A DNA stretch of 32,867 bases from positions 1 to 32,867 of the forward strand of contig JAFLSM010000013.1 in the NCBI GenBank assembly GCA_022510955.1, read 5' to 3'. This DNA comes from Ruminococcus sp. (GTDB taxonomy: Bacteria; Bacillota; Clostridia; Oscillospirales; Acutalibacteraceae). A program made the translations under genes and the position numbers. Below the pieces are notes generated by a model. It did no database searches. It was not told the origin of the DNA and saw nothing but the letters and a program-made list of their open reading frames with translations. This document shows positions 4,918-16,359 of the stretch, one piece after another; positions within the stretch are counted from its first letter, which is position 1; each line of letters opens with the position of its first letter.

Positions 4918-4934
4918 GTAAGGAGTTGACCACT

Positions 4935-7118
4935 ATGGATAAATATATTGGAAAACGACTTGACGGTCGATACGAAATCCACGAGCTCATTGGTGTGGGC
5001 GGTATGGCTAATGTATATCGCTGTAATGATACTGTTGATGACCGCGAGGTTGCTATTAAAATCTTAAAGGATGAATACCTTAACAACGAGGAGTTTATTC
5101 GTCGATTTAAGAATGAATCAAAGGCTATCGCCATGCTTTCGCATCCTAATATTGTAAAGGTTTATGATGTTAGCTTCGGAGATATGATTCAGTATATAGT
5201 AATGGAATATATTGACGGAATTACTCTGAAAGAATATATTGATTTGCAGGGCGTAATTGAGTGGAAAGATGCACTGCACCTTACAACTCAAATTCTAAAG
5301 GCTTTACAGCATGCTCATGAATGTGGAATTGTTCATCGTGACATAAAGCCGCAGAATATTATGCTTTTGCAGGACGGCACAATCAAAGTTACTGATTTTG
5401 GCATTGCAAGATTTTCTGACAAGTCGACTCGTACAATGACAGATCAGGCAATCGGATCTGTTCATTATATTGCACCTGAACAAGCTCGTGGTGAGGTTAC
5501 TGACGGAAAAACAGACATCTATTCGGTTGGTGTTATGTTTTATGAAATGCTTACAGGTAAGCTTCCGTTCGATAGTGACAGTGCCGTTACAATCGCACTT
5601 ATGCAGCTGCAATCAACTCCTAAAATGCCAAGAGAGGTTAATCCTGCAATTCCTGTAGGACTTGAGCAGATTACCATGAGGGCTATGGAAAAGCAGCAAG
5701 CTGACAGATATTCCTCTGCTGCTGAGATGCTCAGTGACATTGAGCGTTTCCGCCTTAATCCGTCAATCGTATTTGACTATGGAAGGTCATTTGTTGACAA
5801 TCAGCCGACAAAATATGTCGGTTCAATAAAGTCAGGAGCTATTTCTGACGGAACAGACGATTTTATCCTTTCTCAAAAGAAAGATTCGTTGATAAAGAAT
5901 GGTTCAACCAAAGCAATCTCAAGGTTTGATTTGGAATCGGAACAGGATAATGCGAATGAAAACGATGATTTAGAATTTGAATATGCTGATGACGAAGAAG
6001 AAAAAACTTACGGTACGGCATATTATGTAGTAAAGAGTGTTCTTATTTCTGCTATTGTTTTATGTGCAATATTCTTTATTCTTGCTATGTTCAGGGGATG
6101 TAATTCGTCTCAGTCAAAAGATGTTGCAGTTCCGAATTATGTCGGAAAAACTCTTGTAGAGGCAAAGGAAAATAATGAGAATAACTTCCAATTTGAAATA
6201 AAGAGCAAATATGACGATTCTAAAGAAATTGGCGAAATTCTCGCTCAGGACCCGGCACCGGATTCAATGCTTGTTAAGACAGGCTCAACCATTACTCTCA
6301 CTGTTAATGGTACAGACACTGAAATTGCCGTTCCGTATATCAGCAATTACAGTGAAGCCGAGGCTGTTCAGATTTTGCGTGATCAAAGCCTTGTTCCGGA
6401 AGTTATATTTGTTGAAAACACAAAGACACCAAAGGGTTATACTATTGATACTTTCCCAACAGCGGGTGTAAGAACACCTATTGGTTCAACAGTTTATGTA
6501 TATATTGCAAACGGTGCCCGTTCAGAACAAGTTACACTTCCTTCAGTAGAGGGATTGCAATTCTCTGAAGCGAAGTCAATGCTTGAGGAACTTGGACTTA
6601 CTGTTGAAGTTAATTATGATGATGACAGTAAAGAAGCAAGAGATACAGTTATCGGAATGTCGCCTTTACAGTATGGTAAGGTTGAAAAAGGAACAGTCAT
6701 TTCTCTTATGGTAAGTTCCGGTAAAGGTGATGAAAACACCGTAAATATCTATGTTGATCTTCCTGCAGATGTAGGTGAAACAGTTGAGATGACGGTAATT
6801 GTTGACGGTGCCGTTGATTCAAAGAACTCAAAAACATTAATTCCGCAGTACAACAGAACAAGCACAATAGAGCTTACGGGTACAGGTGTAAAAACTGTTA
6901 TTGTTCAGCTTGACGGACAGATTTATTATGAATATTCTGTTGACTTTTCCAATTCATCTGTAACAACAGTTGCAAAACATGAATATCAATCAGCAACAAC
7001 TGCTCCGATTGTAACAGAGGAACCAACTGACAATCCAAATGAACCAACATATAATCCGTATGATCCGGATGAAACCGATCCTGCTGATGATACAGTGTCT
7101 AATGGATATGTTTTTTAA
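4935..7118 (+). CDS. prkC: PASTA-domain Ser/Thr protein kinase (PrkC/Stk1-like)
   Basis: GVGGMANVY P-loop, VAIK, HRDIKPQN, DFG, one TM segment, three PASTA repeats; RBS aaggag before ATG 4935. Confidence 0.95.
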   Translation: MDKYIGKRLDGRYEIHELIGVGGMANVYRCNDTVDDREVAIKILKDEYLNNEEFIRRFKNESKAIAMLSHPNIVKVYDVSFGDMIQYIVMEYIDGITLKEYIDLQGVIEWKDALHLTTQILKALQHAHECGIVHRDIKPQNIMLLQDGTIKVTDFGIARFSDKSTRTMTDQAIGSVHYIAPEQARGEVTDGKTDIYSVGVMFYEMLTGKLPFDSDSAVTIALMQLQSTPKMPREVNPAIPVGLEQITMRAMEKQQADRYSSAAEMLSDIERFRLNPSIVFDYGRSFVDNQPTKYVGSIKSGAISDGTDDFILSQKKDSLIKNGSTKAISRFDLESEQDNANENDDLEFEYADDEEEKTYGTAYYVVKSVLISAIVLCAIFFILAMFRGCNSSQSKDVAVPNYVGKTLVEAKENNENNFQFEIKSKYDDSKEIGEILAQDPAPDSMLVKTGSTITLTVNGTDTEIAVPYISNYSEAEAVQILRDQSLVPEVIFVENTKTPKGYTIDTFPTAGVRTPIGSTVYVYIANGARSEQVTLPSVEGLQFSEAKSMLEELGLTVEVNYDDDSKEARDTVIGMSPLQYGKVEKGTVISLMVSSGKGDENTVNIYVDLPADVGETVEMTVIVDGAVDSKNSKTLIPQYNRTSTIELTGTGVKTVIVQLDGQIYYEYSVDFSNSSVTTVAKHEYQSATTAPIVTEEPTDNPNEPTYNPYDPDETDPADDTVSNGYVF

Positions 7119-8941: not shown

Positions 8942-9003
8942 TCTTTGTAGAAAAAATACTTTAGAATAAATTAGAGATAAAATAAACGGAGTTGAAGATT
9001 ATT

Positions 9004-10632
9004 ATGTCATTATGTATGGGCTGTATGCGGGATATTGGTGATAACTCAGTTTGTCCTTCCTGCGGCTTTGACAATTCAGAAAAGCAGCATGCTCCATTTT
9101 TGCCTTATGGCACTGTACTTGCCAACAGATATATTGTAGGTACAGGTATTGATACTAACGGTGAGAGTACAAGATACATTTGTCTTGACAAGCAGACAAA
9201 TGAAGTTTTGATTGTTTGTGAGTTTTTGCCTGTCGGCTTATTTACTCGTGAGGAGAACGGTACAGAGGTTAGAGTTAATTACGAGGATCGCCTTGTTTAT
9301 AACAAATTAAAGGATGATTTTGTTAATTATCACCGTATTCTTTCTGAGCTAAAAGAGCTTACTGCTCTTTTGAATGTTCATAATATTTTTGAAGAGAATA
9401 ATACTGCCTATATAATTGAAGAAAATGAGGATTTAATTCCATTTGAAGAGTATGTTGCTCGCAGTAGCGGACATCTTGAATGGGATATAGCACGACCATT
9501 GTTTATGCCGGTTATCTCTGCTCTTGAAGCACTTCATAAACGTGGCGTCGGTCACTATGCTATTGCTCCGAAAAATATGTATATCACTGCATCCGGCAAG
9601 ATTAAAATTTCTGGTCTTGCAACTGAAAGTGAGCGTAAGCGAGGCACAGCGTTAAAGTCACAGCTTTTCTCAGGTGCAGCTGCTCCTGAACAGTATGATG
9701 ATAATTTCCCGCTTGATGATATTACAGATGTTTATGGTTTCTGTGCTACATTATTCTATGCTTTGACAGGTCATCTGCCTAAGAACGCTGTTGAGCGTCG
9801 TCAGGACAGTAGATTACTTATGAGTACAAATACTGTAAAGCGTTTGCCTCCGCATGTTGTTTCTGCTTTGGCTAACGGTTTGCAGGTTGAACGCGAAAAC
9901 AGAATTACCGACTTTGATGATCTCCGTTCACAACTTTCTGTTGCTCACACAGCAAAGGCAATTCAGGAAGAAATTTCTCGAACTGCAAGTATGAATATTC
10001 CGAAAGATAAACTTAATTCAAAGAAAAAGAACGGTATGTCACATATCTCTGCAATCATCATATCTGTTGCAGTAACCGTTCTTGTGCTTACTATTGCAGG
10101 TGTATTCTGGCTTATGCAAAATCCGCTTTCAGGTGTATTTGGCGGTAATACAGAGGCAACTGTTGAATCAACCCAAAATACAGAGTGGACAGGTGCAGTT
10201 ATTCCAAACTATATTGGTATGACATACGAAGAAGCTGAAAAGGCTGCAAGTACTGATAACTCAATCACTCTTTATCGTAATTTTACTGATGAATACAGTA
10301 ATGATTATGAAGAAGGCAAGATTATGCAGCAGTCACCTGCGGCAGGTTCTCAAATTTTGCAGGATGATAATATTGTTATAAGTGTAACTGTAAGCAAGGG
10401 TGCACAGATGAGAACTCTTCCCAAGGTTGAGGGTTCAAAACTTGACGATGCTGCTGCTGACATTGCAGACCAGGGCTTGCTTGCAACTGTTGAATATGAA
10501 TACAGCAATACTGTTGCTGCTAACAGAGTTATCGGATATAAATCTAACGAAGAGGGAGATACACTTGAATATGGCTCAAGTGTAGTTCTCATTGTAAGCA
10601 AGGGAAAAGAGCCGTCAAATTCTTCGAACTGA
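9004..10632 (+). CDS. Zinc-ribbon, pseudokinase, TM, 2xPASTA membrane protein
   Basis: CMGC...CPSCG ribbon; kinase fold landmarks (ALHKRGVGHYAIAPKNMYI, AAPEQY, DVYGFCATLFYALTG) with lost catalytic residues; TM ISAIIISVAVTVLVLTIAGVFWL; two PASTA repeats. ORF opens at TTG 8992; ATG 9004 follows GGAG with better spacing. Confidence 0.85.
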   Translation: MSLCMGCMRDIGDNSVCPSCGFDNSEKQHAPFLPYGTVLANRYIVGTGIDTNGESTRYICLDKQTNEVLIVCEFLPVGLFTREENGTEVRVNYEDRLVYNKLKDDFVNYHRILSELKELTALLNVHNIFEENNTAYIIEENEDLIPFEEYVARSSGHLEWDIARPLFMPVISALEALHKRGVGHYAIAPKNMYITASGKIKISGLATESERKRGTALKSQLFSGAAAPEQYDDNFPLDDITDVYGFCATLFYALTGHLPKNAVERRQDSRLLMSTNTVKRLPPHVVSALANGLQVERENRITDFDDLRSQLSVAHTAKAIQEEISRTASMNIPKDKLNSKKKNGMSHISAIIISVAVTVLVLTIAGVFWLMQNPLSGVFGGNTEATVESTQNTEWTGAVIPNYIGMTYEEAEKAASTDNSITLYRNFTDEYSNDYEEGKIMQQSPAAGSQILQDDNIVISVTVSKGAQMRTLPKVEGSKLDDAAADIADQGLLATVEYEYSNTVAANRVIGYKSNEEGDTLEYGSSVVLIVSKGKEPSNSSN

Positions 10633-11075: not shown

Positions 11076-12350
11076 TTATAAGTATCCGACAGGATGAATT
11101 GTGTGTTCATCCTTTGGATTAAAGCCCGACAAAATATTGTCACTTAGCAGTACGGCAGGACGCACCGCATAATTGCCAAAGCGTTTTTTGAGTATATCAA
11201 TAGTTTTGTCGAGTTTTTCGTTGCAAATTATTTTTTCTTCATTTTTCAAAAGGCTTATTTGTCGCGGTGCATTGTCGTGTACAAAGTCTGTAGTGTTCAC
11301 ACCTATACTGCGCAGAGGACGCTGCATTTTGTAGTTGCGTTCAAATAATGCGATTGCGGCAGCTGTTACCTCTTTAGTAAGGTTTGTGTGATTTTCAAGT
11401 GTGCATTGTCGAGTAAATGTATTAAGTTCGTTATCTCGGATAGAAAGTCCGACCGTGCGTGCCATAAATCCTTGTTCCCTCATTCTTCTGCACACACTGT
11501 CACACAGCACATAAAGCACAATTTTAACATCTTCAAAGGTTTTCATATCTCTTGGTGTAGTCGTTGAATTGCCAATAGACTTGACCTCTGTGTTGTCGTT
11601 CATATGTGCGACAGGGGAGGAATCATAACCGTTTGCAAATCCGTAAATTAAATCGCCCCATTTACCAAGGTGTGAACGCAAAAGTGAAATTTGTGCATTT
11701 GCAATATCTCCAATTGTGTAAATGCCGATTTTACTGAGCTTTGATTTTGTTGCTCTGCCAACATAGAGCAAGTCCTGTGCAGGACTGTTCCATATAATAT
11801 CTTTATAGTTTTCTCTTGTTATATGTGTTACTGCATCAGGCTTTTTATAGTCGCTGCCGAATTTTGCAAAAATTTTGTTAAAGCTAACACCAATGCTCAC
11901 AGTAATGCCAAGTTCTTCTTTGACACGATTTTTTATTTCCTCGGCAATCTGAACTCCGCTTTTATCTATGTTTTGGGTTACATCAAGCCATGCTTCGTCT
12001 AGTCCGAACGGTTCAATATAATCTGTGTATTCGCTGTAAATTCGCCTTGTCATTTTAGAAAAGCGTTTGTAAAGCTCAAAGCGAGCCGGAACAGTGACAA
12101 GCTCAGGGCATTTTTGTTGTGCCTGCCAAATGGGTTCACCTGTCTTGATATTATACTTTTTAGCTATTTCATTTTTGGCAAGGATAATGCCGTGTCGGTT
12201 TTCTGCATCACCACTGACAGCTACAGGCTTGTTGCGTATTGACGGATTATGCAGACATTCAACACTTGCATAAAATCCGTTGCAGTCACTGTGAAGAATT
12301 ACACGGTCTTGCTTGTATTTTGTTTTGTCAACTGCATTAAAAATATTCAT
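11076..12350 (-). CDS. dinB: Y-family DNA polymerase (DinB/UmuC-like)
   Basis: VILHSDCNGFYASVE, FGLDEAWLDVT catalytic motif, IGVSFNKIFAKFGSDYKKPDA, little-finger region; LexA-type boxes upstream. Confidence 0.93.
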   Translation of the reverse strand: MNIFNAVDKTKYKQDRVILHSDCNGFYASVECLHNPSIRNKPVAVSGDAENRHGIILAKNEIAKKYNIKTGEPIWQAQQKCPELVTVPARFELYKRFSKMTRRIYSEYTDYIEPFGLDEAWLDVTQNIDKSGVQIAEEIKNRVKEELGITVSIGVSFNKIFAKFGSDYKKPDAVTHITRENYKDIIWNSPAQDLLYVGRATKSKLSKIGIYTIGDIANAQISLLRSHLGKWGDLIYGFANGYDSSPVAHMNDNTEVKSIGNSTTTPRDMKTFEDVKIVLYVLCDSVCRRMREQGFMARTVGLSIRDNELNTFTRQCTLENHTNLTKEVTAAAIALFERNYKMQRPLRSIGVNTTDFVHDNAPRQISLLKNEEKIICNEKLDKTIDILKKRFGNYAVRPAVLLSDNILSGFNPKDEHTIHPVGYL

Positions 12351-12360
12351 GAAATCATCT

Positions 12361-12409
12361 CGAACAAATGTTTTGATTTAATTATAGAACATTTGTTCTT
12401 GAATGTCAA
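12361..12409 (-). promoter_or_regulatory. SOS promoter of dinB: sigma-A promoter with two LexA-type boxes
   Basis: Minus strand: TTGACA (12409-12404) - 17 nt - TATAAT (12386-12381); GAACAAATGTTC fills the spacer (12398-12387); second box AAAACATTTGTTCG at 12374-12361. Confidence 0.88.
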
Positions 12410-13273: not shown

Positions 13274-13978
13274 ATGGCTTCATCAGGTTCAGAGCATTCA
13301 GGACACAGACAGCGTGTGCGTAAAAAATTCATAGAAAATGGATTTGATGTTTTTGAGCCGCATGAGGCTTTGGAAATGTTCCTTTTCTATGCAATTCCAC
13401 GCAAGGACACAAATCCGCTTGCCCATCGTTTGCTCGACAGATATCTAACCATTGGCGGAGTGTGCGACGCACCGATTGATGAGCTTATGAACGATTTTGG
13501 ACTTTCAGAGTCGGCGGCAACATATATTAAAATGCTGCCTGAAATGTCAAGACTGTATAATGAATCAAAAATGTCAGATGATAACATTATTGATTACGAA
13601 AATCTAGGTGCGCTGTTTCAGACAAAATTTATCGGCAGAACAAGCGAAGCTGTTGCACTTATGCTTGGAGATGCAAAGGGCAAGATGATATATTTTAGTA
13701 TCATCTCAAAGGGATCGCTTAATTCATCAGATATGCCGATCAGAAAGATTGTTGATCTTTCGCTTCGACACAATGCAAAGACAGCTTTTTTAGCACATAA
13801 TCATCCAAGCGGTACAGCGTTGCCGTCACACAATGATTTGCGTACAACTCAAACAGTGCGTGAGACGCTTTTGAGTGTCGGCGTTGACCTGATTGACCAT
13901 TTTATTATTACAGACGATGATTATGTGTCTTTGCGTGACAGCGGTTTTGCAGGTAATATATTCTTTTATGATGATTAA
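13274..13978 (+). CDS. radC: RadC/JAB-domain protein
   Basis: HRQRVRKKF, HNHPSG metal-binding motif, DHFIITDDDYVSLRDSG. Confidence 0.92.
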   Translation: MASSGSEHSGHRQRVRKKFIENGFDVFEPHEALEMFLFYAIPRKDTNPLAHRLLDRYLTIGGVCDAPIDELMNDFGLSESAATYIKMLPEMSRLYNESKMSDDNIIDYENLGALFQTKFIGRTSEAVALMLGDAKGKMIYFSIISKGSLNSSDMPIRKIVDLSLRHNAKTAFLAHNHPSGTALPSHNDLRTTQTVRETLLSVGVDLIDHFIITDDDYVSLRDSGFAGNIFFYDD

Positions 13979-13992
13979 ACTATAATTATTAT

Positions 13993-14040
13993 TTGACAAA
14001 CAGGAACATCTGTTCTATAATGTATTCGAAAATATGTTCG
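13993..14040 (+). promoter_or_regulatory. SOS promoter of the 108-aa gene / uvrB: sigma-A promoter with two LexA-type boxes
   Basis: TTGACA (13993-13998) - 17 nt - TATAAT (14016-14021); GAACATCTGTTC (14004-14015) fills the spacer; second box CGAAAATATGTTCG (14027-14040). Confidence 0.9.
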
Positions 14041-14061
14041 TATACTATAAGGAATGATATA

Positions 14062-14388
14062 ATGTATAAAGGCGTAATTGTAGAACAGAGTATTACTGAT
14101 ATAACGATTTTGAGCAGTCTTGATGTGCAAAACCGCAATGTGATTGATGCTCAGAATTGGATCGAAACTACAGTTTTTGTTACAGAGGAGCAGATTAAAA
14201 AACTTTCATCACTTTTGCGTGATGGTTGGTATATGCACTTCTGGAGCGGAAGAAGTGTCAAGGTTATTTTTAGAAACAAGGTATTTGAAATAAACTATGA
14301 TGACAAATCAACATGGAACAGTGCAGTTGAGTATGGAATGTCAATCGGCATTCCATATGAACAGCTTGATTTTCCGATTGACGATTAA
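14062..14388 (+). CDS. Uncharacterised 108-aa protein, predicted SOS-regulated, upstream of uvrB
   Basis: Listed ORF opens at 13993 inside the promoter; ATG 14062 follows 'ataagga'. MYKGVIVEQSITD...RDGWYMHFWSGRSVKVIFRNKVFEINYDDKSTWNSAVEYGMSIGIPYEQLDFPIDD. Confidence 0.85.
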   Translation: MYKGVIVEQSITDITILSSLDVQNRNVIDAQNWIETTVFVTEEQIKKLSSLLRDGWYMHFWSGRSVKVIFRNKVFEINYDDKSTWNSAVEYGMSIGIPYEQLDFPIDD

Positions 14389-14397
14389 GGAGTATTT

Positions 14398-16359
14398 ATG
14401 AATAAGTTTAAGCTTCATTCAAAATACAAGCCTACAGGTGATCAACCACAGGCGATTGATAAAATTGTTGACAGCATTGAAAACGGCAACAAGGAAACAA
14501 CATTACTTGGTGTTACAGGTTCGGGTAAGACTTTTACAATGGCAAATGTTATTGAGCGTTTGCAAAGACCTACTCTTGTGCTTGCTCACAACAAAACTTT
14601 GGCTGCACAACTTTGCAGTGAGTTCAAAGAGATTTTTCCCGACAATGCCGTTGAGTATTTTGTGTCTTACTATGATTACTATCAGCCGGAGGCATATGTT
14701 GCCCAGACAGATACCTATATTGAAAAAGACAGCTCAATTAATGATGAAATCGACAAACTTCGCCACAGTGCAACTCTTGCACTGTCAGAACGCAGGGATG
14801 TCATTATAGTCGCATCGGTTTCGTGTATTTATAGCTTGGGTGACCCTATTGATTATCGTAATATGGTTATTTCACTTCGCCCAGGAATGGAGAAATCCCG
14901 TGATGACCTTGTTAGAAAGCTTGTCGAACTGCAATATGAGCGAAATGATGTAAATTTTATTCGTAACAAATTCAGAGTTCACGGTGATGTGGTTGAGATT
15001 TTTCCAGCTGCATCCGGGGACTCTATTATTCGTGTGGAGTTTTTTGGTGATGAAATTGACAGAATTTCAGAAATTAATCCGCTTACAGGTGAATTTAAGG
15101 CTCTTTTAAAGCACGCTGCAATTTATCCTGCATCACACTATATTGTGTCAAGAGATAAAATGCAGGTGGCTCTTAATGAAATTGAAACAGAGCTTCAGGA
15201 AAGACTCGAATATTTCAGAGAAAACGGCAAGTTGCTTGAGGCACAGCGAATTGAGCAGCGAACTCATTATGATATGGAAATGTTGCAGGAAATAGGTTTT
15301 TGCACGGGAATTGAGAACTATTCGAGAATTTTGTCGGGCAGAGAACCTGGTTCTGCTCCGTTTACTCTGCTTGACTATTTTCCCGATGATTTTCTGCTGT
15401 TTGTTGATGAGTCGCATGTAACGCTTCCGCAGGTACGGGGAATGTTTGCAGGTGACCACGCAAGAAAGAAAAATCTTGTTGATTACGGATTCAGACTTCC
15501 GTCTGCTTTTGATAATCGTCCTCTTAACTTTGACGAGTTTTATGAACGCATAAATCAAGCCGTGTTTGTCAGTGCAACTCCCGGTGACCTTGAACTCGAA
15601 AAATCAAAGATTGTTGCAGAGCAGATTATCAGACCGACAGGACTTTTAGACCCTGAAATTTCTGTCAGACCAACTGACGGTCAGCTTGATGACCTTGTGT
15701 CTGAAATTAATATCAGAACAGCTAAAAAGCAACGCACGCTTGTTACTACCCTTACAAAGAAGATGGCAGAGGACTTAACTAACTACCTTGAGACAATGGG
15801 TATTCGTGTTCGCTATATGCACCACGATATTGATACTGTTGAGCGTATGGAAATTGTGCGTGATTTGCGTCTTGGTGAATTTGATGTGCTTGTCGGCATA
15901 AACCTTTTACGAGAAGGACTTGATATTCCTGAGGTTTCGCTTGTTGCGGTTCTTGATGCCGATAAGGAAGGATTTTTGAGAAGCACACGCTCGCTTATTC
16001 AGATTATAGGCCGTGCTGCCCGTAACAGCGAGGGGACGGTTATTATGTATGCCGACAGTGTGACAGAATCAATGAAAACTGCAATTACAGAAACTAACCG
16101 TCGTCGTGAAATTCAGCAGGCGTATAACGCCGAGCATGGTATCACGCCAAAGACTATTGTCAAAAAGGTTAATGAAATTCTTGAAATTTCTACTCATAAA
16201 GAGTCTGAATTTAAGAATACAAAGCAGATGACAAGAGAACAAAAACGACAGCTTATTGAGAATCTTACAAAAGAAATGAAAGCGGCAGCAAAGTTGCTTG
16301 AATTTGAGCATGCTGCTTATTTGCGTGACAAAATTAAAAAGCTGCGTGGAGATAAATAG
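14398..16359 (+). CDS. uvrB: Excinuclease ABC subunit B
   Basis: [13 protein letters not shown] Walker [36 protein letters not shown]-terminal UVR motif; RBS aaggag. Confidence 0.98.

Follow-up and report, generated by a model that had tools for sequence, protein, structure and literature searches.

uvrB is an established member of the LexA/SOS regulon in Firmicutes (PMC3998124). The gut SOS meta-regulon study listed uvrB (COG0556) together with three new COG candidates; the family described below was not among them, and the main-text passages made no mention of a small gene before uvrB (PMC3998124). The locus analyzed here, in a 32,867-nucleotide stretch of DNA (the window) from Ruminococcus sp., a gut member of the Clostridia, shared with the Firmicutes regulon the GAAC-N4-GTTC-type boxes overlapping a sigma-A promoter, the target genes uvrB and dinB, and a lexA gene in the genome. 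However, the product of the first gene of its uvrB operon, here called gene X, belonged to an unnamed family; the standard SOS-uvrB operon is known, and the new part is this first gene. Since SOS operons are well mapped, a first cistron of an unnamed family that is under selection before uvrB is a concrete and testable gap. In Escherichia coli, DinI is a small, acidic, LexA-controlled, and SOS-induced modulator. X is also small and acidic and is predicted to be a LexA-controlled accessory protein; this likeness concerns the way of working and not the sequence, and the two differ in family, fusions, and operon partner. XRE-family regulators in genomes G009 and G161, and probably G022, carried a C-terminal domain homologous to X, whereas X had no helix-turn-helix domain.

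The features of the locus are shown in Table 1. In the promoter, the -35 hexamer TTGACA at 13993–13998 was separated by a spacer of 17 nt from the -10 hexamer TATAAT at 14016–14021, and within the 12.1–16.6 kb region only the promoters of X-uvrB and dinB matched at 12 of 12 positions. When all 14-mers on the plus strand of the window were scored against CGAACATATGTTCG, the box at 14027–14040 was the sole sequence to reach 13 of 14. The genome encoded lexA (TIGR00498, 214 bits, above the cut-off), which had one weaker LexA box in front, so that boxes were found at X-uvrB, at dinB, and in weaker form at lexA; the promoter was also kept in relatives. Given the 12/12 promoter, the LexA boxes, the same design at dinB, and the presence of lexA, the claim of the preliminary description that X opens a uvrB operon under SOS control was therefore well founded in the sequence, and the order promoter-X-uvrB occurred again in a second species, at the homologous locus L003. 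X is very probably SOS-induced together with UvrB.

Table 1. Positions of gene X, its operon partner, and the neighboring SOS features in the window.
Feature	Position	Strand	Remark
dinB (translesion polymerase IV)	11076..12350	-	Divergent SOS gene, same two-box promoter design
dinB LexA box	12361..12374	-	Downstream of dinB -10 box
dinB LexA box	12386..12399	-	Within dinB promoter spacer
radC	13274..13978	+	Upstream of SOS promoter; same neighbor in relatives with and without X
Sigma-A-type promoter TTGACA-N17-TATAAT	13993..14021	+	12/12 match
LexA box 1 (GGAACATCTGTTCT)	14003..14016	+	Inside promoter spacer, touches -10 box
LexA box 2 (CGAAAATATGTTCG)	14027..14040	+	Covers expected transcription start
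AAGGA ribosome-binding site of X	14049..14053	+	8 nt upstream of ATG
Gene X	14062..14388	+	108 aa, uncharacterized alpha/beta domain protein
Gap GGAGTATTT, 9 nt, with uvrB ribosome-binding site	14389..14397	+	Same GGAGTATTT before uvrB in X-less G001
uvrB	14398..16359	+	Second gene of two-gene operon

The open reading frame that had been placed between the LexA-box promoter and uvrB, with a 9-nt gap, was confirmed at 14062–14388 with the uvrB ATG at 14398. A longer in-frame start of X at TTG 13993 was rejected because it coincided with the first letters of the -35 box, and the ATG at 14062 was therefore taken as the correct start codon. Comparison of X with its homologue in L003 gave a dN/dS of 0.276/1.35, or approximately 0.2, indicating a protein-coding gene under purifying selection. 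In the same comparison, the dN/dS of uvrB was 0.04, and the identity was 63% for X and 91% for uvrB; purifying selection on X is much looser than on UvrB. The predicted X protein was acidic, with a computed pI of 4.6.

In L003, the gene order was radC-X-uvrB with its own SOS promoter in front and a gap of 39 nt between X and uvrB. The genome of L003 is apparently that of genus member G982, since the contig and coordinates agreed. Four of the 161 genus genomes contained the family; in G000 and G982 it stood before uvrB, and G009 and G022 carried it within an open frame of 206 amino acids. X was therefore found before uvrB in 2/161 genomes and was missing there from the other 159. Among the 30 loci with the most window-like uvrB, an SOS-type promoter preceded uvrB in four, namely G000, which had X, and G001, G916, and G960, which did not; G982 was a fifth genome with such a promoter, additional to these four, and the other closest relatives that were read had none. 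In G916, there was a single recognizable LexA box before uvrB. The closest relative, G001, with a uvrB 96% identical to that of the window, retained the two boxes as well as the GGAGTATTT preceding uvrB, with approximately 30 nt at the place that X has in the window. The finding that G001, G916, and G960 run uvrB from an SOS-type promoter without X showed that X is optional, an addition to the repair machinery rather than one of its standard components. In the uvrB tree, G000 and G001 were sisters, and G982 stood elsewhere in the clade; there were therefore at least two gains or losses of X, the tree being compatible with either. Most other members of the genus, among them G002, G006, and G024, had no LexA box before uvrB, and in several of them radC extended almost into uvrB. 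The absence of the box from most genus members suggested that SOS control of uvrB itself was gained or lost inside one genus.

Searches of Pfam, NCBIfam, PHROGs, PADLOC, and PDB sequences with X and up to 29 homologues gave matches at chance level only, and the X family is unnamed by any profile library searched. A profile search of 398 genomes from the phylum found the family in 7, and a search of 338 genomes from the class of the Patescibacterium L004 found it in at most 24, this being an upper figure since the weakest matches lay inside unrelated genes, such as those for leucyl-tRNA synthetase (L075) and an ATP synthase subunit (L074). Further members were found on Streptomyces and Nocardia plasmids, and the distribution of the family is sporadic. 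The nearest relatives outside the genus were Patescibacterial. In the family tree, the window gene and L003 were nested among four Patescibacterial genes, with moderate support (83–92) at the deciding forks; this nesting suggested transfer and points to a movement of X between phyla. Most homologues in other phyla either stood alone or were joined to an XRE helix-turn-helix domain or a membrane segment, and they were distant from repair genes. The XRE fusions were found in G009 and G161: in the 206-aa frame of G009, the X domain made up the C-terminal portion of an XRE-type regulator, and probably likewise in G022. In L055 and L066, the X domain was joined to hydrophobic (membrane) segments. 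One homologue, in Patescibacterium G675, adjoined a gene with a NADAR domain (L053:868-1383, minus strand).

In an alignment of 29 rows, Ser10 was invariant, and Gly4, Trp33, Trp56-Tyr57, Lys73, Phe75, and Gly96 were near-invariant; an apparently frameshifted copy (L008/L044) was excluded from a later alignment. The invariant-looking stretches noticed in the single sequence were borne out: WYMHFW and EQLDF were common to the close relatives, and the positions named above were conserved across the 29 homologues. The conserved positions were mainly Trp, Phe, Gly, and hydrophobic residues without an obvious catalytic set. Glu9 lay beside the invariant Ser10, and Asp/His59 and Lys73 were conserved; these four positions could form part of an active site.

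An AlphaFold model of X, made from three sequences, was predicted with a pLDDT of 89.7 and a pTM of 0.77 and had the order beta-alpha-beta-beta-alpha-beta-beta-beta-alpha in a small, compact alpha/beta domain. A model of the homologue from L004 reached a lower pLDDT of 74 and had most of the same elements. A Foldseek search with the X model against the PDB and viral models gave no match at E ≤ 0.001, and the query-normalized TM-scores among the PDB matches listed were 0.32 or lower. The model contained neither a helix-turn-helix nor another DNA-binding motif, which, together with the acidic pI, makes it less likely that X itself binds DNA. Several identities were rejected. The match to the winged-helix family PF15977 (HTH_46) reached 12.3 bits, short of the required 29.3, and the model lacked a helix-turn-helix. 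A weak profile match (E 0.29) of the C-terminal half of X to the phi29 late activator p4 (PDB 2fio) was judged a chance match, as hhalign against six p4 proteins gave a probability of 0.5%. A known phage-defence family was likewise not found among the PADLOC profiles, which had no match for X; a relative, L103, matched PDC-M04B with an E-value of only 2.9e-4.

Outside the genus, a homologue of the same subfamily in Patescibacterium G847 (L078) stood directly behind a LexA-family gene on the same strand, at a distance of approximately 70 nt, and this LexA-family gene encoded LexA DNA-binding and S24 peptidase domains. In Patescibacterium G637 (L089), an X homologue was located two genes from uvrB. 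The preliminary description had tied its interpretation to homologues near SOS boxes or repair genes, and such cases occurred: the SOS promoter of L003, L078 behind its LexA-family gene, and L089 near uvrB. In 333 kb around Patescibacterial X homologues, there were five uvrB, dinB, or lexA genes, two of which neighbored each other, versus one in 400 kb of control sequence, a weak uvrB-like helicase match having been set aside; this enrichment is suggestive and not significant. lexA was present in 17 of 22 X-bearing and 20 of 38 X-lacking genomes (p = 0.10, not significant), and 5 of the 22 X-bearing Patescibacteria had no LexA match. The weak linkage to SOS genes and the X bearers that lack LexA indicated that the family is not tied to SOS in general, the tie being made locally. 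In Patescibacterium G842, one protein, the only one of its kind that was read, combined LexA (DNA-binding and S24 peptidase domains) with an N6/N4 DNA methylase domain (L113:701-2227, minus strand). Such fusions may be common in these genomes, as many other LexA matches lay in frames of similar size (approximately 460–535 aa).

The most economical function for X would be that of an accessory binding, sensor, or regulatory domain recruited to the damage response, co-made with UvrB and dispensable for it. X is probably an SOS-controlled, optional, non-enzymatic binding module (sensor or adaptor) outside the core of excision repair; the binding-module part of this reading draws on the domain fusions and the types of conserved residues only. 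LexA bound to the two boxes flanking the -10 element would keep the X-uvrB promoter off, and cleavage of LexA upon DNA damage would allow a single transcript to yield both X and UvrB. X would represent a stand-alone form of a mobile and unclassified alpha/beta domain of approximately 110–130 amino acids, most likely acting by binding a partner. In other bacteria, the same domain would work alone, at the C-terminus of XRE-type repressors, or tethered to the membrane; in this lineage, it may have been put under LexA, so that its action would be confined to periods of DNA damage and would consist in the optional modulation of a partner. The earlier term "DNA-damage-response factor" thus held for regulation, through the SOS promoter, and not beyond it.

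The other proposal of the preliminary description, a nucleotide-excision-repair accessory, was not supported. A dedicated accessory would bind UvrB or the UvrA-UvrB complex and be produced alongside UvrB in stoichiometric amounts; such a role would accord with the SOS-promoter operon of X and uvrB in two species of the genus and with the position of L089. However, three close relatives (G001, G916, and G960) had an SOS-controlled uvrB without X, X was missing before uvrB in nearly all genomes of the genus, and it has diverged faster than uvrB. Linkage to uvr genes was not conserved: X stood before uvrB in 2/161 genus genomes, and among the neighborhoods that were read one other homologue was near uvrB, the majority of homologues being away from repair genes. 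We consider this explanation quite unlikely. The 9-nt gap, in which the stop codon of X is immediately followed by the ribosome site of uvrB, would also fit a leader cistron that sets the translation of uvrB by coupling and whose product is irrelevant, but the purifying selection on the X protein, the homologues far from uvrB, and the 39-nt gap in L003 make such a role highly improbable.

Alternatively, X may be a passenger that came to lie after the SOS promoter and is unrelated to repair, such as a gene for immunity or anti-defence or another mobile-island gene, for which SOS timing would matter because damage also induces mobile elements. The sporadic distribution, the nesting of the two gut genes among Patescibacterial ones, the plasmid homologues in Streptomyces and Nocardia, the homologue adjoining the NADAR gene, and the location of several homologues just behind a tRNA-like sequence or in variable islands are all consistent with a passenger. 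Nevertheless, there was no convincing match to a PADLOC or PHROG family, and no detectable relative of X was encoded in phage records or viral contigs, and we regard the passenger explanation as doubtful. In a more far-reaching reading, X may found an unrecognized domain family of damage- or stress-responsive modulators in Patescibacteria, Clostridia, and Actinobacteria that came under LexA control at least twice, at the SOS uvrB promoter in gut Clostridia and at a LexA-family gene in Patescibacteria; this is a tentative proposal that we consider unlikely.

The same promoter is followed by X in some close relatives and not in others, which offers a natural comparison for the contribution of X to the damage response. 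As the family occurs in many small-genome Patescibacteria and in the C-terminal halves of XRE regulators, one structure or one binding partner would annotate many genes. Elsewhere in the window, two PASTA-domain proteins were encoded close to each other at 4926–7118 and 8992–10632. The serine/threonine kinase domain was complete in one of them; the other had only a weak kinase match (E 3.7e-10) and is perhaps a divergent or inactive kinase.
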